Positions 9,107 to 36,860 of a stretch of DNA of 40,993 nt are shown here, in pieces (the stretch's first letter is position 1; every line of letters starts with the position of its first letter). Origin of the DNA: a virus; IMG/VR virus record IMGVR_UViG_3300024261_000067, positions 1-40,993 of that record; one strand, written 5' to 3'. The notes under the pieces are model-generated. The model had not been told where the DNA came from and did not search any database. It saw only the letters and a list, made by a program, of their open reading frames with translations. The translations under genes were made by a program, and so were the position numbers.

Positions 9107-9107
9107 A

Positions 9108-9410: not shown

Positions 9411-9417
9411 AAGATAA

Positions 9418-11886: not shown

Positions 11887-11889
11887 ATG

Positions 11890-11897
11890 AATAAATA
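11890..11897 (+). promoter_or_regulatory. Possible late promoter (AATAAATA, one mismatch)
   Basis: Sequence GAATAAATAC lies just after the LamG fibre stop and 21 bases before the chaperone-like gene. It has one mismatch to TATAAATA and sits in the right place in one of the few small gaps of the tail region. Confidence 0.35.
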
Positions 11898-11918
11898 CAC
11901 TAAAGAGGAAACAAAGTA

Positions 11919-12377: not shown

Positions 12378-12391
12378 AGAAAGCAACAACT

Positions 12392-12721
12392 ATGGCTAAC
12401 GATTACCTCGGCGAACGAATCGGTCACCTAGAAACCGAGCAAGCCAGATACGACGAAAGAATCAAGACGGCTTTTAACCGTATTGATGATATAAAAGAAG
12501 GTCAAGAAAAACATGAGGAGCGCGAACTTGCTTATCATCAAAAGACCGAAGACCATATTGATGCATTATCTGACAAGATGGACAAGCTAATTGATAACCA
12601 AAACTCGTTGATCGCTATGAAAAACAAATGGGCGGGTATCATCCTGGCTATTACTTTCATAGGTTCTGTCGGTTTCACCTTTTTTGATGCCATAAGCAAT
12701 TTATTCAAGGGTGGCAGCTAA
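12392..12721 (+). CDS. Coiled-coil protein with C-terminal membrane segment (XhlA-like)
   Basis: A 109-aa protein. Residues 5-75 are charged and heptad-rich (IGHLETEQARYDERIK, HIDALSDKMDKLIDNQ). Residues about 84-103 (WAGIILAITFIGSVGFTFF) form a single membrane helix near the C-terminus. This is the layout of XhlA-type haemolysin/holin-associated proteins of phages. It sits directly before a second small protein with a membrane anchor at the opposite end, so the pair could be lysis accessory proteins. The lysis role is inference. Confidence 0.6.
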   Translation: MANDYLGERIGHLETEQARYDERIKTAFNRIDDIKEGQEKHEERELAYHQKTEDHIDALSDKMDKLIDNQNSLIAMKNKWAGIILAITFIGSVGFTFFDAISNLFKGGS

Positions 12722-12729
12722 ATAGTAAT

Positions 12730-13059
12730 ATGAACATAATAGACGCATTAAAACATATCACAATTTCTCTCGGCGTAGTCTCTGCTATCGGTGGTGCTTA
12801 TGCTGGTGCAGACGCAATGGGGCTTGATATTCCTAGGGTCGCATGGAATACCGAAGTTGAGGAAGTAAAATTCCAACTGGTAGGTCTTGATGTTCGTACC
12901 CAAACACTTATTGTTGAACAGATTCAACGCCAAGTGTGGGCTATTGAAGACCGCATTGAAAAGCGTGGTAGCAACCAGTCGTCAAGAGACAGGTTGAGAA
13001 ATTTAAAAGCGCAATTAGAAGAAGCCAATTCGCGCTTAAAGAAAATTAGAGGTTACTAA
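12730..13059 (+). CDS. N-anchored coiled-coil protein (possible inner-membrane spanin-like)
   Basis: A 109-aa protein. Residues about 8-31 (HITISLGVVSAIGGAYAGAD) form a hydrophobic N-terminal segment that could be an uncleaved signal anchor. The C-terminal half is charged and helical (EDRIEKRGSNQSSRDRLRNL, AQLEEANSRLKKIRGY). A membrane anchor followed by a periplasmic coiled coil is the layout of Rz-type i-spanins, but no embedded Rz1-type lipoprotein ORF was recognised. Its last base is the first base of the next fibre ATG. An alternative is an accessory protein for fibre export or assembly. Confidence 0.55.
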   Translation: MNIIDALKHITISLGVVSAIGGAYAGADAMGLDIPRVAWNTEVEEVKFQLVGLDVRTQTLIVEQIQRQVWAIEDRIEKRGSNQSSRDRLRNLKAQLEEANSRLKKIRGY

Positions 13060-14550: not shown

Positions 14551-14832
14551 ATGTACATAGAACACAAGATAAATGGCATCACAGTTCAATTCAGCAGGGG
14601 GAAAATGCAGTGGGCAGTAGCCCCCGGTAATCGCCACTATGACCAGATGCTATTGGATATTGAGGCTGACCCGACTTGCTCAAAGGTGCAAGACGACACG
14701 CCGGCACCAACAGTCGATGAAACACGCATCGCCGCCTACGGATTAGTCGGCGATCAACTAGATGAAATTTACCATGATGTTGATGCATGGCGCACCCGTA
14801 TTGCACAAGTAAAGGCGGATAATCCAAAATGA
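14551..14832 (+). CDS. XkdW-like small tail protein (cassette B)
   Basis: A 93-aa protein paralogous to the one at 9108: the C-terminal segment RIAAYGLVGDQLDEIYHDVD, then AWRTRIAQVKADNPK, keeps the DQLD, YHD, W and VK-x(2)-xPK positions. The N-terminus (YIEHKINGITVQFSRGKMQW) is different, so only the C-terminal module is shared. It lies 1 base after the fibre gene and its stop overlaps the ATG of the following LamG fibre. That coupling supports a role with these fibres. Confidence 0.7.
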   Translation: MYIEHKINGITVQFSRGKMQWAVAPGNRHYDQMLLDIEADPTCSKVQDDTPAPTVDETRIAAYGLVGDQLDEIYHDVDAWRTRIAQVKADNPK

Positions 14833-16967
14833 GTAAAGCATTAGACATTGCCCAGGGTGGTGGTACAGGTACTTTCAGTGGCGCGGTTGATACCGATGCC
14901 ACATATGTTGATGCTGTTATCTTTGGTCCAGCCCGCGATGGCGTACAATGGGACGAAAAACAAAATCTTTCTGTCGTCAAAAAACTTATGGTCGCCACAG
15001 TGAAAGACGCTGGGGCTGACAGTACGGTTGAAATTTGGGATGCGACGGATTCAAATGTTGTTGGTGGTACAGCCCTTGCATCGGTTACGATCACTGGCGC
15101 AGCGACGCCAACAGGAATTGCGGCCTCTATGGGCTACATCATTGTCGGTTCAGAAGACGGGGTAACGATTATAGACCCACATGACGGCAGCTGGGCTGAA
15201 CGCACAGTAGGCTGGCCCCGGTCACTGTCTACCAGTACAACTCCGGCTTTAGGAAGCAATGCAGTTACAGATGTAAGTGCGGGTACTTGGGACACTTGGC
15301 CCTCTGATCCGCGCACTGGCGGCAACATGCCTTGTTTCGGGTATAATATGAGTAGCGGTGCAGCTTTCGGTGTTATCAAATATGACGGTAATGTTTGGGA
15401 TCGCGTGACAGCCGCTGCGGCAAACTACGGATCAGCTATAGTTAACGGCTACGTTGTTTACTCAGACGGAACATCTGGTGACAGAGCCTTCCAAAGTCAG
15501 CTTATCGAAACTATGACTGCTGATAACTGGTCAGGAACTGCTGCAAACTCCACTACTGGCGGCGTTTATGGTTTAGGTGTAGACAACGGAATATCTGCCC
15601 GTAGCCAAGGTGAAATTGCGTATGCAGCCGCTGCGGGTTTGACTATTGGCAAACTGAATGGCCCAAGGGACGCCGCAGCATCATTCCAAACACATATGAA
15701 CGCAGCTATAAACCGCACATACAACACTGGTTACATGATCGGGGATGTGCGTGGCGCATGGCTTGCAAACTCTGCAACGGCTGATCGTAGCTACAAGGCC
15801 AACACGCTTACTGAGAACGGCACTGTAACATCGGCCTCCGCAGACGGTGCGAGTGGTGAGTTGCTGGCTTATAGCGGGTTTAGTGCAAGTAACTATCTGA
15901 CCAGAGCAACAGACACTGACTTTGATTGGGGCTCTGGAAACTTCTGTATTGTGGCTTGGTTCAAGCTAACAGCGTCAGGTGGCTATGAGACTATCATAAC
16001 ACGAGGAGCCACAACTCCACTCTGGGGTTTGCGGACAGAAACCTCTGGTGCCATGAATTTCATCATTAATGATGGGTCAGGGTTTGATCAGAACATTACA
16101 ACAGCCACTTTTGCTGACAGTGAATGGCACATGATTGTTGCAGTTAAGCGTGGAACAACCAACACTGAAATATGGGTCGATGGCAAGCTAGAACGTGACT
16201 TCACTATCGTTAACGCTACAGCGACACTGACTGTGAATGAGAGTATTGGCATTGGTGCAACGGCGGCGGCTGGTAATCCGTGGGCCAACGGTGCTATTTC
16301 TATGATTAGGGTAGCAGCAACAGCCCCATCAGCCGCACAAATTCGTGCCATGTACGACGCTGAAAAGGGTATGTTTGAAACAGCCGCCAAGGTCTTGCTG
16401 CAATCGGGAACAACCGACGCAGTGTTGGACGTTGATGTTGATCCGGTTTCCGGTAAGGTCGCTGTAACCCAAACCGACGACAAAGGCATTTGGGATGGAC
16501 TCGTATATACCAACGTAGCCGACGATGGCGCTTCCTCGGCCTTCGAACATATGAAACTATGGGGTAACGGGCGTTTCTCAATTGGTGCTACCGATTCCTC
16601 TATCAGTATGCCGACAGAAAGCCTCCGTGAATTGACCGAGACCGTCAAAGGGCTTGGTATTCAACATGAAGGTATTGATCTTGGTAAAGCGAAGGCTTGG
16701 ATTTACGGGACTCAGGCTGAAATCAGAGCCTCACACAACATAGAAAGTATTTCTGTAGCTAGTGCCACAGTCACGGCTGTTTTTGGAACGCCTTTCAAAG
16801 GCTATTATGTGGCATCCGGTTCGTCAGAAGATAATGATGCTAATATCATTGGCGTAGCCGTTACTAACCCGAGCCAGGCGTCGATATATAACTACACTCA
16901 CGCTGGAGCAGCAGATTCTGTTTACCGATATTTAGTGGTATTCTTTGGCGAACTAGAAGGAGAGTAA
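14829..16967 (+). CDS. LamG-domain tail fibre/spike (cassette B)
   Basis: A 712-aa paralogue of the 822-aa fibre of cassette A. The N-terminus is much shorter (MSKALDIAQGGGTGTFSGAV) and lacks the 11-residue repeats. The shared beta domain (TYVDAVIFGPARDGVQWDEK) begins at about residue 25. A LamG sandwich spans about 344-514 (FCIVAWFKLT, DSEWHMIVAVKRG, EIWVDGKLE). The C-terminal module (LLQSGTTDAVLDVDVDP, KGLGIQHEGIDLGKAKAW) is almost the same as in cassette A, and short exact DNA matches persist there. The last ~60 residues differ between the two, perhaps the receptor-facing tip. Confidence 0.8.
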   Translation: MSKALDIAQGGGTGTFSGAVDTDATYVDAVIFGPARDGVQWDEKQNLSVVKKLMVATVKDAGADSTVEIWDATDSNVVGGTALASVTITGAATPTGIAASMGYIIVGSEDGVTIIDPHDGSWAERTVGWPRSLSTSTTPALGSNAVTDVSAGTWDTWPSDPRTGGNMPCFGYNMSSGAAFGVIKYDGNVWDRVTAAAANYGSAIVNGYVVYSDGTSGDRAFQSQLIETMTADNWSGTAANSTTGGVYGLGVDNGISARSQGEIAYAAAAGLTIGKLNGPRDAAASFQTHMNAAINRTYNTGYMIGDVRGAWLANSATADRSYKANTLTENGTVTSASADGASGELLAYSGFSASNYLTRATDTDFDWGSGNFCIVAWFKLTASGGYETIITRGATTPLWGLRTETSGAMNFIINDGSGFDQNITTATFADSEWHMIVAVKRGTTNTEIWVDGKLERDFTIVNATATLTVNESIGIGATAAAGNPWANGAISMIRVAATAPSAAQIRAMYDAEKGMFETAAKVLLQSGTTDAVLDVDVDPVSGKVAVTQTDDKGIWDGLVYTNVADDGASSAFEHMKLWGNGRFSIGATDSSISMPTESLRELTETVKGLGIQHEGIDLGKAKAWIYGTQAEIRASHNIESISVASATVTAVFGTPFKGYYVASGSSEDNDANIIGVAVTNPSQASIYNYTHAGAADSVYRYLVVFFGELEGE

Positions 16968-17321: not shown

Positions 17322-18065
17322 ATGGCAGTACCTACAAGCCGTGAACAACACAGAGAGTATTGCCTTCGCAACTTAGGCAAGCCCGTTATTGACATAAATG
17401 TTGATAATGACCAACTTGACGACCGCATTGATGAATCCCTTCAGTATTACAGGGATTACCACTTTGATGGTACACAACAAGTTTATGTCGCTCACCAAGT
17501 CACAGCCACAGACGTAACCAACAAATATATTTCACTTAATGAAGATATCGTTGGTGTTACACGCATTTTCCCTATCGGTAGCGCAATTTCTTCATCAAGC
17601 AATATGTTCAACCTGAACTATCAGTTTTCCTTGAATGATGTTTTTGACGCCGCTAATGTTCAAATGACGCATTACGTGATCGCTCAACAGCATATCGCAA
17701 TGATACAGGAAATTCTTACAGGTCAACAACCCATTCGTTTCAATCGTCATACCGACCGAGTGAATCTTGATATGGATTGGAACAAGGTAACTGTAGGCAA
17801 TTATGTTATCATCGACGGTTACCAGTTGATTGACCCAGACACCTACACAGACGTATGGAACGACCGTTGGTTGCTTGAATATACCACACAACTTTTCAAA
17901 CGTCAATGGGGTGCTAACCTGAAGAAATTCACGGGCGTACAACTACCCGGTGGCGTGACCTTTAACGGTCAGGAATTGTGGGATGAAGCCAACACACGGC
18001 TCAAGGAACTAGAAGAAGAAATGATTACCTCTTACAGCCTTCCAGTGTTTGATATGTCTGGGTGA
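17322..18065 (+). CDS. 13: Neck protein gp13 (head-tail connector completion)
   Basis: A 247-aa homologue of T4 gp13, which with gp14 closes the portal after packaging and provides the tail-docking surface. The N-terminal block EYCLRNLGKPVIDINVDNDQ, then LDDRIDESLQYYRDYHFDG, is the conserved start of the family in marine T4-like phages; the C-terminal part includes WLLEYTTQLFKRQWGANLKK. It is shorter than T4 gp13 (309 aa), as is usual outside enterophages. A late promoter precedes it and gp14 follows, with an inserted homing endonuclease gene between the two. Confidence 0.85.
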   Translation: MAVPTSREQHREYCLRNLGKPVIDINVDNDQLDDRIDESLQYYRDYHFDGTQQVYVAHQVTATDVTNKYISLNEDIVGVTRIFPIGSAISSSSNMFNLNYQFSLNDVFDAANVQMTHYVIAQQHIAMIQEILTGQQPIRFNRHTDRVNLDMDWNKVTVGNYVIIDGYQLIDPDTYTDVWNDRWLLEYTTQLFKRQWGANLKKFTGVQLPGGVTFNGQELWDEANTRLKELEEEMITSYSLPVFDMSG

Positions 18066-18073
18066 AATATATA

Positions 18074-18712
18074 ATGATTATTTACGCAATAAAATTATTT
18101 GATGAAATCAAATACGTTGGTCAAACATCAAAAAGTCTTGATGAAAGATGGTCTGGTCATGTGTCACGTTCAAAGACCTCTTGTAATTACAAATTATACA
18201 ATGCTATTCGTAAGCATGGTGTAAATAATTTTACATGCGAAATGATTGAAAGATGTGATGAAACTACTATTGATGATAGAGAACAATATTGGATAGGAAA
18301 ATATGATTTACAGACCCTTGGCTATAATCATGCCTCTGGTGGTCGTGTAAATCGTGGTATGAAAAGAAGTGATGATTTCAAAAAGAAATTATCAGTTTCA
18401 GGTAAGAACCTTTACTACGACAACAGCCCGCTGTGTAAATACAACGGCTCCCAAGAACAAAAAAATCAGTTATCGAAAAGACTCAAAGATGTGCCGAAAA
18501 GTATTGAACATGCTACGAAAGCCGCACAAGCAAGAGCCAAGTATTGGTATAAGATAACAACCCAAGATACAGAATTTCATTCATGGTCCTTAGAATGGGT
18601 ATCAAAACTTTTGGATATACCCAAAACTACATTGAAATATCTGTCCAAGAGCGGCAAAATTTCTCGTAAAGGCACCAGTGTAGAAAGGGTTTGTGATTAT
18701 GGCGGTAAATAG
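18074..18712 (+). CDS. GIY-YIG homing endonuclease with downstream DNA-binding segment
   Basis: A 212-aa free-standing homing endonuclease. The catalytic module is at the N-terminus: IIYAIKLFDEIKYVGQTSKS carries the GIY (here YAI) and YIG (here YVG) elements. The conserved Arg in LDERWSGH follows, and the catalytic Glu is probably in REQYWIGKYD. The C-terminal half is basic, with a NUMOD3-like start (RGMKRSDDFKKKLSVSGKN) and a helix-turn-helix-like WSLEWVSKLLDIPKTTLKYL. A GTG at 18062 overlapping the gp13 stop is an alternative start. The gene is AT-richer than its neighbours and its 3' end carries the gp14 ribosome binding site and start codon. Confidence 0.85.
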   Translation: MIIYAIKLFDEIKYVGQTSKSLDERWSGHVSRSKTSCNYKLYNAIRKHGVNNFTCEMIERCDETTIDDREQYWIGKYDLQTLGYNHASGGRVNRGMKRSDDFKKKLSVSGKNLYYDNSPLCKYNGSQEQKNQLSKRLKDVPKSIEHATKAAQARAKYWYKITTQDTEFHSWSLEWVSKLLDIPKTTLKYLSKSGKISRKGTSVERVCDYGGK

Positions 18713-19511
18713 TTATTTCAACAACTATGCCTTCGCCTCAGAACAGGGGTTGGCAGAGGACTTGATAATCGAGTCCATAAAAATGTATGGGCATGATGTT
18801 CAATACTTGCCGCGTACCCTTGTCAAAGAAGATTTGTTGTTTGGTGAAGATACGCTTTCGGCTTTCAATGTAGCCGCGACTATCGAAGTCTATATCAAAA
18901 ATGTTGAGGGCTTTGAAGGTGAGGGTGACCTACTATCAAAGTTTGGTCTTGAGATACGCGACGAGATAACCTTCACAGTAGCCGTCAAAAGGTTCGAACA
19001 ATTTCAATCAGAGAAATTGCTTACAGAAGGCCAAGGCTATAATGTTCTCTTAGAGACAGGCGACGAGTTTTTACTTGAGGATGCCAACGGCGACAACTTT
19101 GCTTTGTCTCTCGGCAGACCCTTTGAAGGAGATCTAATCTACTTCCCATTGAACGGCAAGATTTTCCAGATCGACCATGTTGAACATGAAGAAGTTTTCT
19201 ATTCGTTTGGTCGTCTATACACCTATGATCTGAGGTGTACCCTATTTGAGTATAGCCACGAAACTATTAGTACTGGTAATGCGACCATTGATCAAATAGA
19301 AACCGATTATTCTGGAAACGCCCTTGCTTATGAAATGTTGCTTGAAACAGGTGACAAGATATTGCTAGAAGATGGTGGTTCATTTATCAAGGAAGATTAT
19401 CTACCTGTGAACACCGATGCTCAGGCTAATAACACCTATTTCACAACAACCAATTATGACGACAACATTATTGACTTTAGCGAAATTAACCCGTTTGGCG
19501 AAGCTGAATAG
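18699..19511 (+). CDS. 14: Neck protein gp14
   Basis: A 270-aa homologue of T4 gp14 (256 aa), partner of gp13 in the head-tail neck. The N-terminus (NSYFNNYAFASEQGLAEDLI, then SIKMYGHDVQYLPRTLVKED) is diagnostic for the family. I chose the ATG rather than the GTG two codons upstream because family members begin only a few residues before the YFN motif. An AAAGGG ribosome binding site lies about 10 bases before it. The start overlaps the end of the GIY-YIG gene by 14 bases. Two similar segments, LLETGDEFLLEDANGD and LLETGDKILLEDGGSF, repeat in the C-terminal half. Confidence 0.88.
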   Translation: MAVNSYFNNYAFASEQGLAEDLIIESIKMYGHDVQYLPRTLVKEDLLFGEDTLSAFNVAATIEVYIKNVEGFEGEGDLLSKFGLEIRDEITFTVAVKRFEQFQSEKLLTEGQGYNVLLETGDEFLLEDANGDNFALSLGRPFEGDLIYFPLNGKIFQIDHVEHEEVFYSFGRLYTYDLRCTLFEYSHETISTGNATIDQIETDYSGNALAYEMLLETGDKILLEDGGSFIKEDYLPVNTDAQANNTYFTTTNYDDNIIDFSEINPFGEAE

Positions 19512-20124
19512 ATTTACATCTATCACCATGATGGCGAGATAAGGTTAACTGATTAGAAACGGTCTTCTGACAATGAACACACGAAACTGGATACTGTCTG
19601 TCTTTGGATTTTTGCCCTATCTTTCTCTTTCTCTCCTCGGAGTGTTTTTTACCATAGTTGCCATTGCCAGCACCAGTTCGTTGTTTACTCCATAATTCTC
19701 TCAATTCTTTTGATGGTACTTTGCCGCGATGGGCGTCACCTATCTTCTTTTTTGTTTCATCGGAAAGAACAGCACCCAATCTCGGCTGTCTGCCTTTATT
19801 CGATTCACTAATAACCTTAGCCACTTTTACCCTGTTGTATTCATGTAGTCTGGAAACATACCGTTTGCCATGGGCGTCCACACCCATCATGTTGAACGCA
19901 AACACCATTTTATGATGGTCAGAACCTTTGGTCATTCTAACCAATAGAGCGTGACAAATGAAATGCTCTTTTGCGGTAAGAGAAACCGTTTCTTCACCAC
20001 CCATAGATTCAGGCACGATATGATGCTTTTCAACATATCCTTCGGGAATAGGTCGTGATTGTGCGTTACGGATGATATTGAAATACCATCTTGTGTATTT
20101 GTTCTGTATAAATAGATGTGACAT
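19486..20124 (-). CDS. HNH homing endonuclease with NUMOD3 and zinc-finger-like tail
   Basis: A 212-aa minus-strand endonuclease between genes 14 and 15. The HNH core begins at GYVEKHHIVPESMGG (residues 29-43) and continues through LTAKEHFICHALLVRM. Two NUMOD3-like helices follow (LSDETKKKIGDAHRGK and KKHSEERKRKIGQKSKDR). The C-terminal segment has a Cys-x2-Cys ... His-His-x3-Cys arrangement near residues 182-203, which may bind zinc. Its 3' end overlaps the last 26 bases of gene 14. It has its own minus-strand TATAAATA 60 bases upstream, so it is predicted to be expressed late. Confidence 0.85.
   Translation of the reverse strand: MSHLFIQNKYTRWYFNIIRNAQSRPIPEGYVEKHHIVPESMGGEETVSLTAKEHFICHALLVRMTKGSDHHKMVFAFNMMGVDAHGKRYVSRLHEYNRVKVAKVISESNKGRQPRLGAVLSDETKKKIGDAHRGKVPSKELRELWSKQRTGAGNGNYGKKHSEERKRKIGQKSKDRQYPVSCVHCQKTVSNQLTLSRHHGDRCKSIQLRQTG
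20107..20114 (+). promoter_or_regulatory. T4-type late promoter octamer TATAAATA (toward gene 15)
   Basis: Exact + strand octamer within the first codons of the minus-strand HNH gene, about 93 bases upstream of the small Cys-rich gene and gene 15. It would supply late transcription of 15, 16 and 17 past the insertion. Confidence 0.65.
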
Positions 20125-26532: not shown

Positions 26533-26566
26533 GGGTGGGGCTAGCAATAGTTCCACCCATTTTTTT
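26533..26566 (+). terminator. Rho-independent terminator after gene 18
   Basis: Stem GGGTGGGGCTA / TAGTTCCACCC (11 pairs with two G-T wobbles), GCAA tetraloop, followed by seven T. The minus-strand endonuclease ends inside the stem at its TAG. Confidence 0.92.
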
Positions 26567-27302
26567 GTCCTACAACCCAAGAATACAAGGTTTGATATTT
26601 CACCTCTGGGTAGTCTTCATTGGCACTACGAATTGATGAGTATTCTTTATAGCCATCGGTGACTTTACGAGAACTGGTGCCAGAGGCTTTCGTGGCTTCC
26701 CTATGCTTCGCTCTAATATCAGGATTATCCATTGGATTATTGTTGCGAGTGAATTCCGCTTTCACTTTCCGGCCTTCTTCTGTCAATGTCGAACGGCTAT
26801 TAGTCTTGCCTATTTTAGCCTTCGACTCGGCGCTATGCTTTTTGCCGTACATATTGTTTTTCTCACCCTTCTGGCTTTGACCATGGCCCTTCTTATATCC
26901 CTGACTCAGGTAATATGATTCAAGGTCTTTGTCTATCATAATTTTACCGTCTTCATTATACACCCAGATACGCCCCAGTTTTCGCAGAGACATTTTCTTG
27001 CGGATTACATCATCAAAGGCAATTCCGCCCGAAATGTTTTTGTTGAGCCATTTCGTTTCGTTCAACACCTGCATCCGGCGCAGGACTTTCTGCTCCCATA
27101 CGAGGGCATTATGACGTTTCTCAAATGTCTTTCGTACCTGAATAACGTCGGGCAGACCCCAGGATCTCATACATTCATGGACATATTTTGATGAGGTGAA
27201 ATAGCTGGTGAACAAGTCTTCTGGTTTGCAGCCACGGGCATAGCGTACACCATAGTACCAGACATTCTTTTCTTTCCAGCCTATCAAGTAGGTATATTTC
27301 AT
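26541..27302 (-). CDS. Seg-like/NUMOD-type homing endonuclease
   Basis: A 253-aa minus-strand protein between genes 18 and 19. The N-terminal ~100 residues (YTYLIGWKEKNVWYYGVRYA, LFTSYFTSSKYVHECM, VRKTFEKRHNALVWEQKVLR) look like a GIY-YIG-related nuclease of the Seg type: YLI and YYG correspond to the two motifs and Glu in the WEQ segment could be catalytic. A NUMOD3 repeat follows (NNMYGKKHSAESKAKIGK), then NNPMDNPDIRAKHREATK. The C-terminal helix-turn-helix-like tail (YSSIRSANEDYPEVKYQTLY) ends in GWNYC. It has its own late octamer upstream. Confidence 0.75.
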   Translation of the reverse strand: MKYTYLIGWKEKNVWYYGVRYARGCKPEDLFTSYFTSSKYVHECMRSWGLPDVIQVRKTFEKRHNALVWEQKVLRRMQVLNETKWLNKNISGGIAFDDVIRKKMSLRKLGRIWVYNEDGKIMIDKDLESYYLSQGYKKGHGQSQKGEKNNMYGKKHSAESKAKIGKTNSRSTLTEEGRKVKAEFTRNNNPMDNPDIRAKHREATKASGTSSRKVTDGYKEYSSIRSANEDYPEVKYQTLYSWVVGQKNGWNYC

Positions 27303-28217: not shown

Positions 28218-29834
28218 ATGATTCAGTTGTTCGGCTATCAAATTGGCCGTGTAGAAAAAGAAGACAAAAAGCGAGAGAACATTCAATCGTTCACCGCTCC
28301 GGCTAACCACGACGCGGCTATGACGGTTGCGGAAAATGGCGTCTTCGGTACATATTTGGATATGGACGCGACTTCAAAAAACGAAGCGCAACTTATCACA
28401 AAATACAGAGAACTTGCTTTATCACCTGAGGGTGAAAGAGCCATTGATGATATCGTAAACGAAGCGATCATAATGGAGAACTACAAGTCTCCTGTTGAAA
28501 TCAAGTTAGACAAACTGGAACAGCCAGAGGCTATCAAAAAGAAAATCACCGAAGAATTTGAACAGATTCTCAAGTTGATGGATTTCAACAACAAGGCTTA
28601 TGATATTTTCAAACGCTGGTACGTAGACGGTCGTTTGTATTACCACAAGATGATTGACGTAAAGAAGCCAAGGCAGGGCATTCTGGAATTGCGCTATATC
28701 GACCCTCGTAAAATCAAGAAGGTTCGTAAGCAGATTGCACCGAAGGACACTAACAGACCTGTTGTTTCTATTGCACCGTCATATAAAGAATTCTACCTAT
28801 ACAACGAACGTGGCATCGCCAGTAACATGAACGAGGGTATTCGTATCGCTAAAGATTCGATTACCTATGTTCACTCCGGTATTATCAACGAACGAAACAC
28901 CATCATCCTTTCGCATTTGAATAAGGCTCTAAAGATTTGGAACCAGATGCGTTGGATGGAAGACTCATTGGTCATTTACCGTATCTCTCGCGCACCCGAA
29001 CGTCGCATTTTCTACATTGACGTTGGTAACCTGCCGAAGATGAAGGCGGAACAATATCTCAAAGATATGATGGTCAAGCATAAGAACAAACTGGTCTATG
29101 ACGCCTCGACTGGTGAAATCAAAGACGACCGTAAATTCCAGACTATGATGGAAGATTTCTGGTTGCCTCGTCGTGAAGGTGGCAAAGGAACAGAGATTTC
29201 TACACTACCCGGTGGTGAGAACTTGGGTCAAATTGAGGATGTTGAATTCTTCAAAAACAAATTTTACAAGGCCTTGAACGTACCTATCTCTCGTATGGAA
29301 GCAGACGGCGCATTTAATCTTGGTCGTGCAAGTGAAATTACCCGTGACGAATTGAAATTCTCAAAGTTTATCAACAGATTGCGTATGCAGTTTGCCGAAA
29401 TGTTTGACGATTTTCTTGAAACCCAACTAATTCTCAAGGGTATCACAGACAAAGCAACATGGAATATCATCAAAGAGGATATCTTTTATGACTTCCGTGA
29501 AGATAACCACTTTGCTGAATCAAAGAACCAGGAAATCTTGCGCGAACGCATGACCATCTTGAATGATGTTGACGCCTATGTTGGTCGTTACTATTCTCTT
29601 GAGTGGGTCAAAAAGAATATTCTTCGCCAGACTGATGAAGAAATCGAAGAATTGGCTAAGGCTATGAAAGAGGATGAAGCGGAAGGAGTAGATCCAGAAG
29701 AAACTGGTGACACAAACTTCGGTGCTTTCTCTGGACGACCAGACGCGGCTACACGCGAAGAACCTATAGAGCAACTTCCAGACGAGGAAGACCGTCAGTT
29801 ACCTGGCGCACCGGAGCCAGAGCCAAAGAAGTGA
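28218..29834 (+). CDS. 20: Portal vertex protein gp20
   Basis: A 538-aa homologue of T4 gp20 (524 aa), the dodecameric DNA gate and prohead initiator. Diagnostic stretches include SPEGERAIDDIVNEAIIMEN, MDFNNKAYDIFKRWYVDGRL, LELRYIDPRKIKKVRKQ, RISRAPERRIFYIDVGNLPK, MKAEQYLKDMMVKHKNKLVY, and FKNKFYKALNVPISRMEAD. The C-terminus is acidic and Pro-rich as usual. The TGA is followed in the same frame by about 100 further open codons belonging to a decayed neighbour, described separately. Confidence 0.96.
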   Translation: MIQLFGYQIGRVEKEDKKRENIQSFTAPANHDAAMTVAENGVFGTYLDMDATSKNEAQLITKYRELALSPEGERAIDDIVNEAIIMENYKSPVEIKLDKLEQPEAIKKKITEEFEQILKLMDFNNKAYDIFKRWYVDGRLYYHKMIDVKKPRQGILELRYIDPRKIKKVRKQIAPKDTNRPVVSIAPSYKEFYLYNERGIASNMNEGIRIAKDSITYVHSGIINERNTIILSHLNKALKIWNQMRWMEDSLVIYRISRAPERRIFYIDVGNLPKMKAEQYLKDMMVKHKNKLVYDASTGEIKDDRKFQTMMEDFWLPRREGGKGTEISTLPGGENLGQIEDVEFFKNKFYKALNVPISRMEADGAFNLGRASEITRDELKFSKFINRLRMQFAEMFDDFLETQLILKGITDKATWNIIKEDIFYDFREDNHFAESKNQEILRERMTILNDVDAYVGRYYSLEWVKKNILRQTDEEIEELAKAMKEDEAEGVDPEETGDTNFGAFSGRPDAATREEPIEQLPDEEDRQLPGAPEPEPKK

Positions 29835-30286
29835 GCCGCCACAACTTTCCTAGATAGAATATGGATTAATACGTGTTCTGGTGACGGTATAAATATTGAT
29901 GATTGCTTAGGTTTGAGAGCATTAGACATTTCTATTGAAGGCGTTGTAAACGGTTTCAAAACAACAGCAACCTCATTGGGTACCGGTGGTGAAACTGACT
30001 TACAAAGAATTATAATTATGAACGCAACAACGGGTATCAATATCGGAACAAACGTCGAACACACAAAAGTTTATTTGTCGTGTCTTGTTGGACCTGATGT
30101 TACCACAAGGTTGACAGACAACGGCACAAATACCTTTGTCGAAACTGGCGCAAGGCTTCTGTTGATACAAGAGCAATTGCCGACGCTGTATGGGATGAAG
30201 CAGTCGCAGATCACACGACAGCCGGAACCTTCGGGGAACGTGTTGGCAAACTACTGACCAAAATTCAATCGCTTTACTACAACTAA
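29835..30286 (+). pseudogene. Decayed beta-helix/fibre-type gene after portal
   Basis: No intact gene spans this stretch, but two protein-like pieces can be read. From the portal stop to about 30150 the portal frame continues with TCSGDGINIDDCLGLRALDI and NATTGINIGTNVEHTKVYLS, resembling a parallel beta-helix spike; no usable ATG heads it. The C-terminal piece is in the frame one base back, from about 30155 (SVDTRAIADAVWDEAVADHT, then TAGTFGERVGKLL), a sequence type common at the ends of phage structural proteins. One indel between 30140 and 30160 would join them. A late octamer lies inside at 29888. It is either a remnant or a gene broken by a sequence error; no slippery heptamer was seen. 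Confidence 0.6.
29888..29895 (+). promoter_or_regulatory. T4-type late promoter octamer TATAAATA inside decayed gene
   Basis: Exact octamer 54 bases after the portal stop. It could transcribe the prohead core genes, though a second octamer at 30314 is closer. Confidence 0.5.
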
Positions 30287-30321: not shown

Positions 30322-30339
30322 GTGATAGGAGAACAAATA

Positions 30340-30519
30340 ATGACCGAATACACAACAACAGATATCGTAAGGCATTCACTAGCGGGTGAAGCAGGCAAAG
30401 TAAAAGAAGCCGTGACCGCAGTAATGGGCGATAAAGTTGCAGACGCTCTGAACGTCAAGCGGGCTTCTATAGCCGCGACGTGGCTTCAATCCCAAACAGA
30501 CGAGGAACCTGATGAGTAA
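30340..30519 (+). CDS. Small prohead core protein (gp67/gp68-like)
   Basis: A 59-aa helical protein. The segment IVRHSLAGEAGKVKEAVTAV, then MGDKVADALNVKRASIAATW, matches a short core-protein pattern I recall from the 20-21 interval of marine T4-like phages, ending with the xVADALxxKRxxIAxxW signature. T4 places gp67 and gp68 here as minor scaffold proteins degraded by gp21. I chose the ATG with the strong ribosome binding site rather than an upstream in-frame ATG at 30322. Its last codons overlap the next gene by 8 bases. Confidence 0.7.
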   Translation: MTEYTTTDIVRHSLAGEAGKVKEAVTAVMGDKVADALNVKRASIAATWLQSQTDEEPDE

Positions 30520-31894
30520 ATCATTTAGACAAATGCGCCGAGACCTTCAAGAGGTACCCGAGGCAAACCCACAGGAAATGGAGCCTGAAAATCCAGAAGT
30601 CAAAGCCGCTAATTCGCTCAAAAAGGGCAAGAAGCTGGCTGATATGACTAAGCACCCAACTGCGGGTGACGAGGTTTTCAAAGGCAAAGCAACAGGCGCT
30701 CGGTCTTCTGTTCATGCTGAAGAAACTGAATTGGGTGAAGCTAAGAAATATGAATTCAATGCAGATCAAGAAAACTTTGATTTTGACCCAGAAGAAATGT
30801 TGAAGGCAGCAAAAGCCAAAGGTCTAAATGCTAAATTTACCTATCGCATGGGTCGGTCCAAAGGACCAGATGGTGTTACTATCAAAGATGATCCCGCAAA
30901 GGTCAAAAAGTTCATTAGTGGTTATGACGCGAAGGCTGCTAAAGGTATCGACTATTATAATCTGATTGAAAACGAAGAAACTGAATTGGCTGAAGGCGCA
31001 CTACAACTAAAAGCGATTCCTTATTTCGCCGCTGCTCAAGGTAAGATGCTCAACAAATCTGACCAAGCCAAGGCTTATATGGAAATCGGTAAACAAATGA
31101 AGGCGTTTGCCAAGAAGCATATCAAAGACAAAGAAGAAACAAATTACTGGAATTCGATCATCCATATCTTTAGTCGTGGTTCCAGACCATTTGAAGACGA
31201 TTTCATGTTCGGTTCCTTTGCGCCTGATAACGCAGACCAAATCAAAAAGCGTGTGGTACAAGTCATTTCTAAACTGACAGGTAACCCTAAGTTTTGGAAG
31301 GCTGTTGCAAGCATCAAAGAGGAAGTTGAACTTGATGAAATCAAAGCTAATCGCCCAAGAGCCGGTGGTAGTAAAGCGATTGAAAACAGCATCAAGCGCC
31401 ATATTGAAATGACAAAGGAATTTGTTAAAAAAGGTATGAGCCAAGAGGCCGCTTCTAAAAAAGCGTTTGATATTATCACTTCTGGTGTTAAAGAAGAAGT
31501 TGAACTTGATGAAGTTTCCGACGCTGGTAAAGCCGTTCTGGCTGCTAAAGGTGCCAAGAGAGGCATCCGTGATGTTCATAAAGCGGCTGACGGTGTTGAA
31601 AAATCTGTAGATGATGCAGAAGACGCAGCCAAGAAAGCATTGAAAGCCAAGAACAAAGAAACTCGTAAAGAGGGTCTCGAATCTTTCGGTAGTTTTATTG
31701 ACGAAGCCCTTTCTAAAAAAAACGCTGATAAGCAGAGCGCCGGAATGATGAAGGTTCTCAAAAAATCGTCCTTAGAATTTGCACAAAGAGAAGTCAAACG
31801 CTTGAGGGGCAAGGGTAAAAGTGATGAAGCCATTATGAAAACCCTACAAAAAGATGGACATAACGAAGACGCAATTCTGAAAGCAGTGGGGTAA
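30512..31894 (+). CDS. Prohead core/internal protein with repeated protease-site motifs
   Basis: A 460-aa Lys/Glu/Ala-rich helical protein in the core-protein interval. It carries short acidic motifs ending in a T4 gp21-like L/I-x-E site: ETELGEA (LGE 74-76), ETELAEG (159-161), KEEVELDEI (274-276), KEEVELDEV (332-334) and FGSFIDEAL (396-398). T4 prohead protease cuts after L/I-x-E, so this protein may be a polyprotein of internal peptides and basic domains packaged with DNA. Segments between the sites are basic (ANRPRAGGSKAIENSIKRHI). The C-terminal ~50 residues form a compact helical domain. Role as a core protein is likely; processing is prediction. Confidence 0.65.
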   Translation: MSKSFRQMRRDLQEVPEANPQEMEPENPEVKAANSLKKGKKLADMTKHPTAGDEVFKGKATGARSSVHAEETELGEAKKYEFNADQENFDFDPEEMLKAAKAKGLNAKFTYRMGRSKGPDGVTIKDDPAKVKKFISGYDAKAAKGIDYYNLIENEETELAEGALQLKAIPYFAAAQGKMLNKSDQAKAYMEIGKQMKAFAKKHIKDKEETNYWNSIIHIFSRGSRPFEDDFMFGSFAPDNADQIKKRVVQVISKLTGNPKFWKAVASIKEEVELDEIKANRPRAGGSKAIENSIKRHIEMTKEFVKKGMSQEAASKKAFDIITSGVKEEVELDEVSDAGKAVLAAKGAKRGIRDVHKAADGVEKSVDDAEDAAKKALKAKNKETRKEGLESFGSFIDEALSKKNADKQSAGMMKVLKKSSLEFAQREVKRLRGKGKSDEAIMKTLQKDGHNEDAILKAVG

Positions 31895-31897
31895 ATC

Positions 31898-32176
31898 ATG
31901 CCTAATCAAACCGATAAATTCAATAATTTCTATACGGACCTAGATAGTCCTGCGGCGCATTCCTATGCTATAACATCAAGTAACACAGCAAACACCACAC
32001 ATACGACCCGTTCGGTTTATGTTGGTGAGACTGGTACTCTTGTTGTTGAACTTGCAGGTATGGCTTCAGGAAACACCGTTACATTTACCGCTATTCCAGC
32101 TGGTACTGTTCTGCCTTTGCGCGTCCGTAAAGTGTGGACTAACTCAACAGCCAACAGCGTAATCGGAATGTACTAA
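31898..32176 (+). CDS. Head-spike base-like protein (GTA Rcc01079 type)
   Basis: A 92-aa beta-rich protein. The pattern TRSVYVGETGTLVVELAG ... VTFTAIPAGTVLPLRVRKVW ... SVIGMY corresponds to a small trimeric beta-barrel family whose described member is the spike base of the Rhodobacter capsulatus gene transfer agent (Rcc01079, as I recall). There, the spike base sits on capsid vertices and carries a spike fibre. The neighbouring gene here encodes a LamG protein that could be that fibre. The gene starts 3 bases after the core protein and 3 bases before the next gene. Family call is by remembered pattern and needs a profile search. Confidence 0.65.
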   Translation: MPNQTDKFNNFYTDLDSPAAHSYAITSSNTANTTHTTRSVYVGETGTLVVELAGMASGNTVTFTAIPAGTVLPLRVRKVWTNSTANSVIGMY

Positions 32177-32179
32177 ACC

Positions 32180-32959
32180 ATGAAATTGGGTGCTGGCATA
32201 TCTCTTACTAATATGGCTATCGTGAATCCTGCTTCCAGGTTCTCTGGTGGTGGAGGTGCGCCTGCTACTGATCCTTATTGGGATAATGTTGTACTATATT
32301 CTAAATTCAATGGTACAGACGCTTCAACCACGTTTGTTGATGAAACAGGCTTAAAAACATTAGCTGCCGTTGGCACCGCAGAACTTGATACAGCCGAAAA
32401 AGTATTCGGTACAGCGTCCCTTATCTTACCAGGCACTCACGATCATTATGTTTCTATAAATGCTGGAACTGAAATGACATTTGGAACTGGTGATTTAACT
32501 GTTGAAATGAGAGTTAAACTGAATGCCTTTGGTACAGCAGGCATCAACCTGCTAGACTTTAGATCAACTAACAGCGCAGCACCATGGGCAATTGATATTT
32601 TTGGTCCGGCGGCTGCGGAAGCATACAGAAATGAAATTCACTTCTATAACGGTACAGAATATGGTTCAACAGGCGCTGGTTTAACAACTGGTGTATGGTA
32701 TGCTATTGCTTGGACTAGAACAGGTGGTACATCATATCTGTTTGTAGATGGTGTTGAAGTAGGTTCGTTTGCTGATAGTAATAACTACACAAACGGTAAC
32801 CACACAACACGCATTGGTGATAACTGGGATTCAATAGTAGGTCCAGATGGCCCACTTTCTGGTTGGATGGATGAATTGAGAATAACAAAAGGTGTGGCTC
32901 GTTATACAGGCAACTACACAATCGCAACAGAAGAATTCCCAACTAGCGGTCCCGCATAA
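32180..32959 (+). CDS. LamG-domain protein, candidate head-spike fibre
   Basis: A 259-aa protein. Residues 1-30 are an attachment-like N-terminus with a glycine hinge (RFSGGGGAPATDPYWDNVVL). The rest is a single LamG/concanavalin-like sandwich: YSKFNGTDASTTFVDETG, LTVEMRVKLNAFG, GVWYAIAWTRTGGTSYLFVD, MDELRITKGVARYTGNY. The domain ends almost at the C-terminus. It lies between the spike-base-like gene and the prohead protease, not among tail fibres, so it is probably displayed on the capsid and may bind surface glycans (inference). Confidence 0.7.
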   Translation: MKLGAGISLTNMAIVNPASRFSGGGGAPATDPYWDNVVLYSKFNGTDASTTFVDETGLKTLAAVGTAELDTAEKVFGTASLILPGTHDHYVSINAGTEMTFGTGDLTVEMRVKLNAFGTAGINLLDFRSTNSAAPWAIDIFGPAAAEAYRNEIHFYNGTEYGSTGAGLTTGVWYAIAWTRTGGTSYLFVDGVEVGSFADSNNYTNGNHTTRIGDNWDSIVGPDGPLSGWMDELRITKGVARYTGNYTIATEEFPTSGPA

Positions 32960-32969: not shown

Positions 32970-33620
32970 ATGAAACTAATTACAGAAATGTCTGAAGACG
33001 TTAAACCGTTTGAGGAATTGAACGAAGCGACTGGTGAGAAAACTCTATATATCAATGGAGTGTTTATGCAGTCTGAAGTCGCTAACCGTAATGGTCGTAA
33101 ATATCCAAGCGCGATCCTGGAACGTGAAGTTGCCCGTTATGTGACTGAAAATGTCGATAAGGGTAGAGCATGGGGCGAACTTGGTCATCCTACAGGACCG
33201 ACCATCAACCTCGACCGTGCGTCACACCGCATTACGTCGCTTGTCAAAGAAGGTAATAACTTCATTGGTAAAGCAAAAATTTCAAGCACCCCAATGGGTG
33301 ATATTGTCAAGGGTCTTATCAAAGACGGTGGCAATCTTGGTGTATCCAGCCGTGGCATGGGTTCACTAAAACAAGTCCAGGGCGTCAACGAAGTACAAGG
33401 TGATTTTCATCTGGCTACTCCGGCTGACATTGTGGCAGACCCTTCAGCACCCGATGCTTACGTTGACGGTATTATGGAAGGTAGAGAATGGGTATGGGCA
33501 AACGGTATCATCAAAGAAGTTGATATTGCCCGTCACCAACAAGTGATTCAAAAGGCGTCTAGGAGAGAACTTGAGGAAAGCAAACTTGCTGTTTTTCAGG
33601 ATTTTCTTTCAAGACTCTAA
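32970..33620 (+). CDS. 21: Prohead core protease gp21
   Basis: A 216-aa homologue of T4 gp21 (212 aa), the serine protease that cleaves scaffold, core and capsid precursors. Expected catalytic residues: His73 in WGELGHPTGPTINLDR and Ser126/127 in GGNLGVSSRGMGSL; an Asp in LATPADIVADPSAPDAYVDG may complete the site. The ATG preceded by AAAGGA is preferred to an upstream in-frame start at 32892, which would overlap the LamG gene. The C-terminus (RRELEESKLAVFQDFLSRL) is helical. Confidence 0.93.
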   Translation: MKLITEMSEDVKPFEELNEATGEKTLYINGVFMQSEVANRNGRKYPSAILEREVARYVTENVDKGRAWGELGHPTGPTINLDRASHRITSLVKEGNNFIGKAKISSTPMGDIVKGLIKDGGNLGVSSRGMGSLKQVQGVNEVQGDFHLATPADIVADPSAPDAYVDGIMEGREWVWANGIIKEVDIARHQQVIQKASRRELEESKLAVFQDFLSRL

Positions 33621-33664: not shown

Positions 33665-34804
33665 ATGTCTATCAAAGATGAACAATTGGACGAATTCAAG
33701 GCTGACCATTCTGGCACGCCTGTTGTGAAGGGCTCCGAAATTAGCGATTCTGACAAAAGTAAGAACGCTGAAGATCCAAAAGCTGACGGCAAGAAGAAAA
33801 AAGGCGCCCAAAGCCAAGAAACCATTTCTGCTAAAGAAGCGTTGAAAAACGAAGAAGTCGAAGAAGAATTGACTAAAGCGGATATGATTAATGCTGTTAT
33901 TGACAGCATGAAAGACAAATCCACCCTCGAACTTGAATCAATGTTCGATGGCGTCATGGGTTCTCTCGTTGAAGCCGACGATGAAGATGATGACGACGAT
34001 GAAGACGACGACGATAAAAAGTCCGAGAAAAAAGAAAACCCTTTCAAAAAAGTAACCAAAGAAGATGTTGACCTTGCAGCCGACGTTGCTGCAATGTTCG
34101 GTGATGAAGACCTTTCCGAGGAATTCAAAGCCACTGCAACTACTATCTTTGAAGCCGCTGTTGTTGCTAAGGCTAACGAAGTTGCCCAGCAAATTGCAGA
34201 AGCGGCTGAAGCAGAACTTACTGAAACCAGTGATGCTCTTGTGGCGGAAATGGCTCAAAAAGTTGATACATATCTTGAATATGTTTGCGAAGAATGGGTA
34301 TCAGAAAACGAACTAGCTATCGATTCTGGTATTCGTAACGAACTAGCCGAATCTTTCATTACTGGCCTACACGGCTTGTTGGAAGACCATTTCATTGACG
34401 TACCCGAAGAAAAGGTTGACGTTGTTGAGGAATTGGCCCTTCGTAACCAAGATCTAGAAGCGCAATTAGATGAAGCATTGAATGCTTCTATCGACCTTCG
34501 TCAGGAAAAAGACACTCTGACAATGGCTGAAATTGTTGCGGAAGTGACTGAAGGTCTCGTTGACACTCAGGCAGAAAAATTGAAAGCACTCGCCGAAGGC
34601 GTTGATTTCGATAGTGAAGATGATTATCGTGACAAAGTTGTTACTCTGAAGGAAAGTTATTTCCCAACAGATGGCAAAGTTGTCGTTCTAAGTGAAGAAG
34701 TATCTGACGAAGCTATTGACGACGGTAGCGAATCAGAAGCCCGAAAAGCGGACCCAGCGATGAGCCCGTATATGGACGCCATTTCTCGCACTACAAAACG
34801 CTAA
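33665..34804 (+). CDS. 22: Prohead scaffolding core protein gp22
   Basis: A 379-aa highly acidic, helical protein at the gene 22 position between protease and capsid. An Asp/Glu run around residues 99-118 is followed by EKKENPFKKVTKEDVDLAAD. The C-terminal half (DVVEELALRNQDLEAQLDEA, LRQEKDTLTMAEIVAEVTEG, YRDKVVTLKESYFP) matches the coiled-coil core of the family. It is longer than T4 gp22 (269 aa), mainly by an N-terminal extension (residues 1-120) that begins SIKDEQLDEFKADHSGTPV and contains L-x-E sites. It forms the internal scaffold and is degraded by gp21. Confidence 0.88.
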   Translation: MSIKDEQLDEFKADHSGTPVVKGSEISDSDKSKNAEDPKADGKKKKGAQSQETISAKEALKNEEVEEELTKADMINAVIDSMKDKSTLELESMFDGVMGSLVEADDEDDDDDEDDDDKKSEKKENPFKKVTKEDVDLAADVAAMFGDEDLSEEFKATATTIFEAAVVAKANEVAQQIAEAAEAELTETSDALVAEMAQKVDTYLEYVCEEWVSENELAIDSGIRNELAESFITGLHGLLEDHFIDVPEEKVDVVEELALRNQDLEAQLDEALNASIDLRQEKDTLTMAEIVAEVTEGLVDTQAEKLKALAEGVDFDSEDDYRDKVVTLKESYFPTDGKVVVLSEEVSDEAIDDGSESEARKADPAMSPYMDAISRTTKR

Positions 34805-34845: not shown

Positions 34846-36207
34846 ATGTTGCTCAATCACGAACTACAAGAGAAGTGGCAGCCAGTAATAGAACACCCCG
34901 ATCTACCTAAGATCGAGGATGCTCACAAACGCTCGGTTATCGCAACTCTGCTAGAGAACCAAGAAACGGATGCCCGTACCAATGCCGCTGGCAATGGTGG
35001 CTACCGTGGACCACAATCTCTATTGGAAGCTGCACCAACGAACAACATGGGTGCTTCTTCTTCTACTGCTGGCGACGGCGCTATCGACATTTTCGATCCA
35101 GTGTTGATTTCACTACTTCGCCGTGCTGCACCGAACCTAATGGCTTTTGATATGATGGGCGTTCAGCCTATGACTGGTCCAACCGGACTTATCTTTGCTA
35201 TGCGTTCACGCTACACCAACCAAACTGGTACTGAAGCACTTCATAACGAAGCAAACACAACATTCTCAGCCGCTGCTGCTGGTAATGCTGCGATGGCTCT
35301 TGTTGCTAACAACCAACTTGGTTCTTCACCTGTTGCGACACCTGTCGACGGTGACACTTACACAGCCGCTACCGCTATGTCAACAGCACTTGCTGAAAGA
35401 CTTGGCGAAGCAACAACACATGACTTCCCTGAAATGGCTTTCTCAATCGAGAAAATCACCGTGACAGCCCTTAGTCGTGCGCTTAAAGCTGAATACACCA
35501 TGGAATTGGCTCAAGACTTGAAAGCCGTTCATGGTTTGGATGCTGAAACAGAATTGTCTAACATTCTGTCAACAGAAATCCTGGCTGAAATCAACCGCGA
35601 AATGGTTCGTAAGATCAATATCTCTGCTACAATCGGCGCCCAAGAAAACGTCGCTTCTGCTGGTACATTCGATCTTGACCAAGACGCAAACGGACGTTGG
35701 TCTGTTGAAAAGTTCAAGGGCTTGATGTTCCAATTGGAGCGCGAAGCCAACGCAATTGCCAAGGCTACTCGTCGTGGTAAAGGTAACATGCTTGTTTGTT
35801 CAAGTGACGTTGCCTCTGCATTGAACATGGCTGGTGTTCTTGATACATCATCTGCTTTGAACAACAGCATCACCTCTGACGACACAGGCAACACCTTCGT
35901 TGGTAACCTGAACGGTCAGTTCAAGGTTTATATCGACCCTTACTTTGCAGCCACATCTGGTATCCAGTATGCTACTGTTGGTTATAAAGGTTCAAGTCCT
36001 TTTGATGCCGGTATGTTCTATTGCCCATACGTGCCACTACAAATGGTTCGCGCTATTGGCGAGAATACGTTCCAGCCCAAAATCGGATTCAAGACCAGGT
36101 ATGGCCTTGTTGCTAACCCATATGCGACTTCGGCAGCCGATGGTGTTGTATCGTTCGCTAATAAGAACTCTTATTACAGAATTATTGCGGTCGACAATCT
36201 CATGTGA
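34846..36207 (+). CDS. 23: Major capsid protein gp23
   Basis: A 453-aa homologue of T4 gp23 (521 aa), HK97 fold. Family features: VIATLLENQETDAR in the propeptide, DPVLISLLRRAAPNLMAFDM, MTGPTGLIFAMRSRYTNQTG, AEYTMELAQDLKAVHGLDAE, LSNILSTEILAEINREMVRK, YKGSSPFDAGMFYCPYVPL, and KIGFKTRYGLVANPY. The likely gp21 cleavage site is SLLE|AAPTNN (Glu61), close to T4 Glu65. It is preceded by a late promoter and ends at a strong terminator, as expected for the most abundant virion protein. Confidence 0.97.
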   Translation: MLLNHELQEKWQPVIEHPDLPKIEDAHKRSVIATLLENQETDARTNAAGNGGYRGPQSLLEAAPTNNMGASSSTAGDGAIDIFDPVLISLLRRAAPNLMAFDMMGVQPMTGPTGLIFAMRSRYTNQTGTEALHNEANTTFSAAAAGNAAMALVANNQLGSSPVATPVDGDTYTAATAMSTALAERLGEATTHDFPEMAFSIEKITVTALSRALKAEYTMELAQDLKAVHGLDAETELSNILSTEILAEINREMVRKINISATIGAQENVASAGTFDLDQDANGRWSVEKFKGLMFQLEREANAIAKATRRGKGNMLVCSSDVASALNMAGVLDTSSALNNSITSDDTGNTFVGNLNGQFKVYIDPYFAATSGIQYATVGYKGSSPFDAGMFYCPYVPLQMVRAIGENTFQPKIGFKTRYGLVANPYATSAADGVVSFANKNSYYRIIAVDNLM

Positions 36208-36326: not shown

Positions 36327-36860
36327 ATGAAACACAAACATCATATAATACCGAGACACTCAGGTGGCACCGATGATCCACCGAATCTCATTCTCCTAAC
36401 CATACCAGAACATGCCGAAGCGCATAGAAAACTCTATGAAGAATATGGTAACGAATATGACCGTATTGCTTGGAAATGTTTATCTGGTCAAATCACAAAT
36501 GCAGAAGCGCACCGTGCCGCACATAAAGAGCGCATGACTGGTAGCATACCCTGGAATAAGGGGAAGACCGGAATCTGGACCGAGGAGCAACTTGAAAATA
36601 ACAGGGAAAAGCACCGGGGCAAACCAGTATCACAAGAAACCCGGGACAAGATTGCTGATAAACATAGAGGCAAGAAACACAGCCAAGAGAGAAAAGACGC
36701 TATTGGCGCAGGAAATTCTAAACAATTCTTGGTATCAGAACCTGGTGGAGAACCCTACGTCATTGTCAACCTAAGGGAGTGGTCAGGGGCGCGTGGTGTA
36801 GACCAGGGAAATCTCATAAAATATGGAAAAAGCAAAGGATTCACAGCAAAAAAGGTATAA
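36327..36860 (+). CDS. HNH homing endonuclease with NUMOD3 repeats
   Basis: A 177-aa endonuclease. The HNH motif starts at residue 3: HKHHIIPRHSGGTDDPPNLI, then LLTIPEHAEAHRKLYEEYG, supplies the His-His, Asn and His residues. Two NUMOD3-like helices follow (IWTEEQLENNREKHRGK, VSQETRDKIADKHRGKKHSQ). The tail REWSGARGVDQGNLIKYGKS is helix-turn-helix-like. The motif begins so early that no later start is possible, yet the ATG has no Shine-Dalgarno and lies right behind a late promoter. It sits downstream of gene 23. Confidence 0.85.
   Translation: MKHKHHIIPRHSGGTDDPPNLILLTIPEHAEAHRKLYEEYGNEYDRIAWKCLSGQITNAEAHRAAHKERMTGSIPWNKGKTGIWTEEQLENNREKHRGKPVSQETRDKIADKHRGKKHSQERKDAIGAGNSKQFLVSEPGGEPYVIVNLREWSGARGVDQGNLIKYGKSKGFTAKKV

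Follow-up and report, generated by a model that had tools for sequence, protein, structure and literature searches.

Does a virus of the T4 superfamily carry on its capsid the kind of head spike known from the R. capsulatus GTA (RcGTA)? The question is raised by two adjacent genes in an IMG/VR virus record (the window, i.e. the whole stretch of 40,993 bases that was analysed), one coding for a 92-aa protein with the pattern of the RcGTA spike base and the other for a protein with a LamG domain. The two ORFs lie where the preliminary description had placed them, and its GTA-like head-spike reading of the pair is supported. We consider it probable that the pair encodes an RcGTA-type head spike which a T4-superfamily myovirus uses at its capsid vertices as a LamG glycan tether, a reading derived from the genes of an IMG/VR fragment. 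Its direct support comes from four observations: the base is homologous to the RcGTA base and shares its fold, the neighbour has a star-type N-terminus and a lectin-type fold, the genes stand in a fitting order, and they are tightly spaced.

The surroundings of the pair are a T4-type head block, in which Pfam matches place gp20, gp21, gp22 and gp23 in this order on the + strand. The portal gp20 (28218..29834, PF07230 E 3.2e-174) is preceded by gp19, which starts at 27397 (+). The prohead protease gp21 (32970..33620, ATG at 32970, PF03420, Peptidase_S77, E 2.2e-41) is followed by the scaffold gp22 (33665..34804, PF25623 E 3.3e-65) and the major capsid protein gp23 (34846..36207, PF07068 E 4.6e-138). 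The base gene (31898..32176, stop codon counted in) and the LamG fibre gene (32180..32959, 259 aa) are found directly upstream of gp21, on the strand common to gp20, gp22 and gp23. Upstream of them, also on the + strand, a 65-aa ORF (30322..30519) would code for a gp67-like prohead core protein, judged by position and by likeness to relatives (in tblastn L032 matched at 37% over 54 aa and others more weakly), and a 460-aa ORF (30512..31894) for a putative prohead core protein without a family match above the cut-off. The preliminary description had set the pair between core protein and protease; the protease is confirmed, and the core protein, which has no Pfam match above the cut-off, is plausible by its position only. 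The gaps are short: 3 nt separate the 460-aa ORF from the base gene, another 3 nt the base gene from the LamG gene, and 10 nt the LamG gene from gp21. The pair thus belongs to one tight gene run.

The GC content of the base gene (0.446) and of the LamG gene (0.429) is like that of the neighbours (0.423-0.475). In third positions the LamG gene is low, 0.27 vs 0.36-0.47 in the base and head genes, which is a weak hint of recent arrival. By nucleotide comparison the same phage is present in three further IMG/VR contigs. The whole pair is found in two of them, L001/L017 (100% identity over 12,276 and 99.99% over 16,024 bases) and L002 (100% over 8,859 bases); the third, L003 (100% over 4,827 bases), stops after LamG residue 177 of 259. 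No near-identical phage was matched in the annotated collection. A search for a second base among the 433 ORF fragments of at least 40 aa in the window returned the known base as sole match. It should also be mentioned that a 114-aa ORF without Pfam or PHROG match (29913-30257) is located between gp20 and the gp67-like ORF, and that the late gene block contains four homing-endonuclease-like ORFs, one of which matches phrog_314 at E 1.8e-19 (18062-18712), the other three (19486-20124; 26541-27302; 36327-36860) being called by eye only.

The base protein was compared with PDB sequences using phmmer, and 'Head spike base Rcc01079' (6tb9) was the sole match below 0.1 (E 8.4e-7). Pfam gave no family for it at E <= 1; in PHROGs it is matched at E 9.5e-17 by phrog_12296, a family labelled 'tail fiber protein'. 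The AlphaFold2 model (45 sequences, mean pLDDT 89.2, pTM 0.74) gave two Foldseek matches under E 0.001 in the PDB, 6tb9_A1 (TM 0.79/0.85) and 8cjz_h (TM 0.70/0.74), the latter from the mature-capsid map of Carin-1. VIA-align superimposed 83 of 84 residues on 6tb9 (Z 12.5, 1.5 Å) and 85 residues on the Carin-1 capsid chain (Z 11.1, 3.7 Å); the third and fourth rows, the FLiP penton protein and a STIV structural protein, both have Z 4.6 and the rest no more than 4.6. A comparison with the viral model library yielded 20 matches under E 0.001, most of them to uncharacterised proteins of phages. The base is a homologue of Rcc01079 with the jelly-roll fold of Rcc01079. The spike-base pattern noticed at the start is therefore more than chance, and the structural match on which the first reading had been staked beforehand was found by a wide margin, in TM score as well as in Z. 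The RcGTA cation residue Glu12 is aligned to Asp16 of the base, but this site is variable in the family alignment rows shown, which we count against the head-spike reading. Carin-1, a Cobetia marina phage called T7-like (PMC11476376), is a podophage, unlike the virus of the window.

The neighbour contains, as the preliminary description had it, a single LamG domain; this Laminin_G_3 match is the only one in Pfam (PF13385 E 1.7e-14, residues 88-237, 54.7 bits vs a cut-off of 27.6). Three parts can be told apart: codons 1-10 with alternating hydrophobic residues, the 'star' anchor and putative base-binding plug (32180..32209, +); codons 11-33, a Gly-rich linker mostly of low confidence (32210..32278, +); and one LamG/ConA-like beta-sandwich domain, residues 34-259 with the stop codon (32279..32959, +). 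The model (18 sequences, pLDDT 79.7, pTM 0.80) shows the beta-rich domain from about residue 34. Residues 1-30 are of low confidence, with block means of 47-61 (47 for residues 11-20, 61 for residues 21-30), and GGGG is found at residues 23-26, so that 'glycine-hinged N-terminus' was a fair description; the loops at about 131-160 and 211-220 are also of low confidence. A long helix or shaft is absent from the model, which would suit a singly anchored chain, unlike an ordinary trimeric tail fibre. Foldseek ranks domain 4 of the arabinanase AbnA first (E 1e-8, TM 0.60/0.73). We considered the Foldseek neighbours as possible kin and rejected them as such, since most of them are generic ConA-like domains from proteins unrelated in other respects, with only the fold in common.

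The LamG protein has no sequence match to Rcc01080 in a PDB sequence set including the full 325-aa Rcc01080 (E <= 0.1), and we therefore do not call it GhsB; Rcc01080 did not match any of 63 genomic fibre-position proteins either. A second LamG protein of 712 aa (14829-16967, PF13385 E 8.7e-15) is encoded beside the tail-fibre-like ORFs. It has no star peptide and shares, by eye, long stretches with an 822-aa ORF (9418-11886).

Residues 2-10 of the RcGTA fibre, I-A-L-G-L-G-L-G-L, lie on the base pentamer as a star with five points (PMC7296036). The PDB chain of Rcc01080 starts MIALGLGLGL and the window fibre starts MKLGAGISL, with the hydrophobic residues M1, L3, A5, I7 and L9. Removal of Met1 should be blocked by Lys2. 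Met1 would then be kept thanks to Lys2, and the window fibre would have five star points. Like starts are found behind the bases of Flavobacterium phage immuto (MYIGLGISL), RcapNL (MGLGLGIGLGL), Edwardsiella phage ZHS (MIGLGLNIW) and P8625 (MIGLGLDLSL), and of IMG/VR contigs (MQIGLGLSI, MRLGLGISI, MKLGLSLSL). The partner in R. capsulatus SP108 starts MSALGLGLGL and reaches the contig end after 187 aa.

A looser first form of the motif (25/77 partners vs 40/1100 controls) was dropped because it scored some internal start codons. With the strict form the motif was found in 17 of 70 non-redundant partners, the window counted; of 700 control ORFs taken at these same loci, 5 had it (Fisher P 5e-15). 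This set was built from 90 non-redundant bases after removal of repeated partners, and by the rule 11 of the bases stand without a partner ORF. The strict rule had been written after inspecting the partners, and the comparison was therefore repeated with the rule fixed on a second set, 80 bacterial genome loci found with the RcGTA base, 17 of which lack a partner ORF for the base under this rule; here 11/63 partners and 2/819 controls carry the motif (P 7e-12). It should be noted that most partners fail the strict motif (53/70 and 52/63) and that both sets include bases without a partner, which counts against the head-spike reading; some of the failing partners are near misses (MRLGTGLGL, MLGLGSGLM) and others resemble unrelated genes. 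The pairing of base and fibre is backed by the star-type N-terminus, of which the preliminary description had noticed only the glycine hinge.

Compared with the RcGTA spike (GhsA/GhsB, PDB 6tb9/6tba) the window thus has a homologous base with the same fold over 83/84 residues, a fibre gene directly downstream, an alternating-hydrophobic N-terminal anchor and a flexible distal part. The differences are that the window pair is located in the head block of a T4-type myovirus whereas RcGTA has an unlinked GTA locus, and that the distal part is one LamG domain. What the LamG protein has in common with Rcc01080 is its position and the type of anchor, with no match in sequence. Each of the eleven RcGTA spikes consists of a pentamer of Rcc01079 and one chain of Rcc01080 and is situated on a capsid pentamer (PMC7296036), which speaks against the trimer of the preliminary description. 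Binding of the tagged RcGTA fibre was 100% with capsulated SB1003 cells and about 4% with a capsule-less mutant; it was about 45% with the capsule-less strain 37b4 and 72% once 37b4 had been given capsule genes (PMC10218006). Because of the 45% binding to capsule-less 37b4 the fibre is not strictly capsule-dependent. Gene donation by RcGTA continues, at low frequency, when the head spikes are missing; the spikes thus help and are not essential (PMC10218006).

For the spike of the window we infer a base pentamer with one fibre chain (5:1 stoichiometry), a vertex location, a glycan ligand and a role in adsorption. Five of the jelly-roll bases would sit by their N-termini on the five-fold vertex of the gp23 capsid, and one LamG chain would plug M1-L3-A5-I7-L9 into five equivalent pockets of the base pentamer. 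The flexible Gly-rich linker would let the one lectin-like domain sweep outward. With up to 11 such spikes the virion, head first or in random orientation, would be kept in loose contact with a polysaccharide of the host surface until its tail fibres reach the true receptor. By analogy with RcGTA, we propose that the spike probably serves reversible docking of the myovirus head to glycans. One point which counts against the head-spike reading is that the window contains one gp23-family gene; the vertices of this phage could be made of gp23 or of a gp24 encoded elsewhere.

The LamG head fibre could also serve for binding other surfaces or particles, such as mucus, algae, detritus or other virions, as a tether like T4 Hoc or the fibre of Agrobacterium phage 7-7-1, a myophage. 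We find this unlikely, although the best of the alternatives. Capsid fibres of the Hoc type and of 7-7-1 are described as tethers to mucin, flagella or other phages (PMC12796354; Hoc papers), and the RcGTA precedent is one of binding to the host capsule (PMC10218006), which argues against the environmental role. Hoc is, like the proposed spike, a capsid-displayed fibre of a T4-type phage; it differs in being a single chain with no base/fibre pair, having a C-terminal capsid-binding domain and three Ig-like domains and being present in 155 copies (PMC10385173). No Ig-like domains of Hoc type were found in the window pair by Pfam. In phage 7-7-1, too, every vertex pentamer bears a single central fibre; the differences are the postulated anchor, namely the Ig-type domains of its linker protein 2, and the flagellar target (PMC12796354).

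The preliminary description also regarded such a pair as unseen in the T4 group. Bases are carried by two further phages of this group, immuto and Caulobacter phage Cr30, and neither record names the base as a head spike. In immuto (160 kb) the window's gp20, gp21 and gp23 have matches at E 1e-26, 7e-28 and 5e-30. Gene products 205 and 206, annotated as 'tail fiber protein' and 'hypothetical protein', are a base 38.5% identical to that of the window and its star-peptide partner. This is again a base and star-peptide pair in the head block of a T4-superfamily phage; unlike the window pair it follows directly after gp23, and the partner lacks LamG, showing no Pfam match and, by eye, Ig-type repeats. 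Cr30 (156 kb), whose gp23 and gp20 are 56% and 45% identical to those of the window, has been placed in a T4-like supercluster (PMC10783043). Its OZ74_gp270 is a base homologue of 75 aa (phrog_12296 E 1.9e-11) located upstream of gp18; unlike the base of the window it is followed by the sheath gene, with no adjacent fibre partner.

In the stretches of DNA covered for the 81 loci L096-L176, T4 head genes were found in immuto only, and searches of IMG/VR with other base probes gave only immuto and Cr30 as T4-like carriers among the matches listed. In T4-like relatives found with gp21 (best 80 of 304) no base was present in any of 78 loci besides the window's own phage, and tblastn with base and LamG was likewise negative in 78; both gp20 and gp21 matches are present in 64 of the 78 loci, and the absence of a base is meaningful for these only. 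Independent origins of the three T4-like bases were considered and given up, as a tree of 63 rows and 87 columns resolves little. A single clade is compatible with the AU test (p 0.67 for the three, 0.77 for window and immuto). We claim only that the positions of the three differ.

The slot before gp21 is in some relatives occupied by other small proteins, which by eye are rich in beta structure. Proteins of L032, L036, L057 (three) and L185 served as seeds of an HMM, which also matched L058 and L059 (which repeat L057), L076, L077, L092 and the Pelagibacter phages Mosig and HTVC008M; Melnitz and DLP6 gave no match. The family is found in 8/78 IMG/VR relatives (seeds counted; best 80 of 304) and in 2/4 cultured ones. 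Its members are 105-150 aa long with up to three in tandem before gp21 (L032 2166-2537; L036 7007-7453; L057 3843-5052; L076 1094-1480; L200 4749-5490; L202 4672-5462), and the five slot proteins of L032, L036 and L057 have no PHROG match at E <= 0.01. We suggest that the slot may be a bay for capsid decoration and the slot family a candidate capsid-decoration family. In L185 (235-1352) a LamG protein starting MLGLNSGLIG is found downstream of a 122-aa protein in place of a base of GTA type, which would fit star-type fibres being able to use a different socket; the 122-aa protein is one of the HMM seeds, and its kinship with the slot family is thus not independent.

Outside the T4-like phages the base family is widespread. 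A consensus probe found 233 relatives in IMG/VR (best 80 of 233 examined) and the RcGTA base found at least 134 in bacterial and archaeal genomes (best 80 examined); the family is also present in 105 phage records and, at E <= 1, in 14 plasmid records. Base and LamG pairs occur elsewhere in L146, L114 and Verrucomicrobia phage P8625 (gp23/gp24). When 20 chosen partners of other bases were compared with Pfam, 3 had LamG (P8625 gp24 E 7e-20, L146 E 7.8e-14, L114 E 7.7e-9), 1 had a SASA carbohydrate-esterase domain (Limimaricola, L015) and 16 were unmatched; two Thioclava partners outside these 20 are annotated as sialate O-acetylesterase. On the Rhodobacterales plasmids L009, L010, L011, L012, L014 and L015 the bases have as neighbours genes for polysaccharide synthesis or plasmid replication or, on L009, pqq genes, and the stretches covered contain no structural genes of phages; the neighbour of the base on L012 is without the star motif. 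These plasmid loci may be GTA head-spike loci that are mobile and linked to the type of capsule.

Some of these positions count against a head spike: in P8625 and RcapNL the base is downstream of tail genes, and in Rhodobacter phage RcGingersnap it is among non-structural genes. The LamG-like regions of T4-like cyanophages, found in gp7-type baseplate wedge proteins, are a further point of this kind. One may therefore think of the pair as a tail or baseplate adhesin, with the base as adapter on a tail structure and the LamG protein as a short tail fibre, as the 'tail fiber' label of phrog_12296 would also have it. We regard this as somewhat less likely still than the environmental tether, because both clearly matching solved chains come from capsid maps (by PDB titles), the RcGTA base is on capsid pentamers (PMC7296036), and the pair is inside the head block, with the tail-fibre-like ORFs apart from it at 6431-14549. 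Small capsid jelly rolls often serve as cement. That the base is a vertex cement stabilising the capsid and the LamG domain no adhesin, as this and the partnerless bases in 17/80 genomic loci and in Cr30 might suggest, is the least likely of the alternatives, given a star peptide with varied partners (LamG, SASA-type esterase, Ig-like repeats by eye), which indicates display of changing cargo, and an RcGTA that still works, at low frequency, without its spikes (PMC10218006).

We return to the head spike as the preferred reading. A match of rcc01079 in phage RcapNL was reported earlier (PMC8601537), and the kind of spike is already known from RcGTA and, by fold, from Carin-1; what sets the present case apart is the T4 setting and the lectin cargo. 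The titles and abstract starts listed from the open-licence literature gave no report of an RcGTA-type spike in a T4-like phage, and titles gave no virion proteomics of immuto or elemo phages. A wider model, which we put forward tentatively and think somewhat doubtful, is that the head block of the T4 superfamily would be an exchangeable adhesin bay. The slot before gp21 (in immuto the place behind gp23) would take different decoration modules, and the GTA-type base with its star plug would be a universal socket in which lectins, esterases and Ig-type repeats are swapped among several tailed-phage types and GTAs. If this is true, infection would commonly begin with head-first docking to glycans, a step so far overlooked and masked by 'tail fiber' labels.

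The finding carries a mechanism established in a GTA into the T4 superfamily and puts names to its partners, a socket of 92 aa and a plug of ten residues. The sequence rule can reveal further capsid fibres now called tail fibre or hypothetical. Should the head-spike reading be true, models of host range and adsorption of T4-like phages would need a capsid-borne sugar-binding step: T4-type viruses may grip the sugars of the host surface by their heads before the tails engage.
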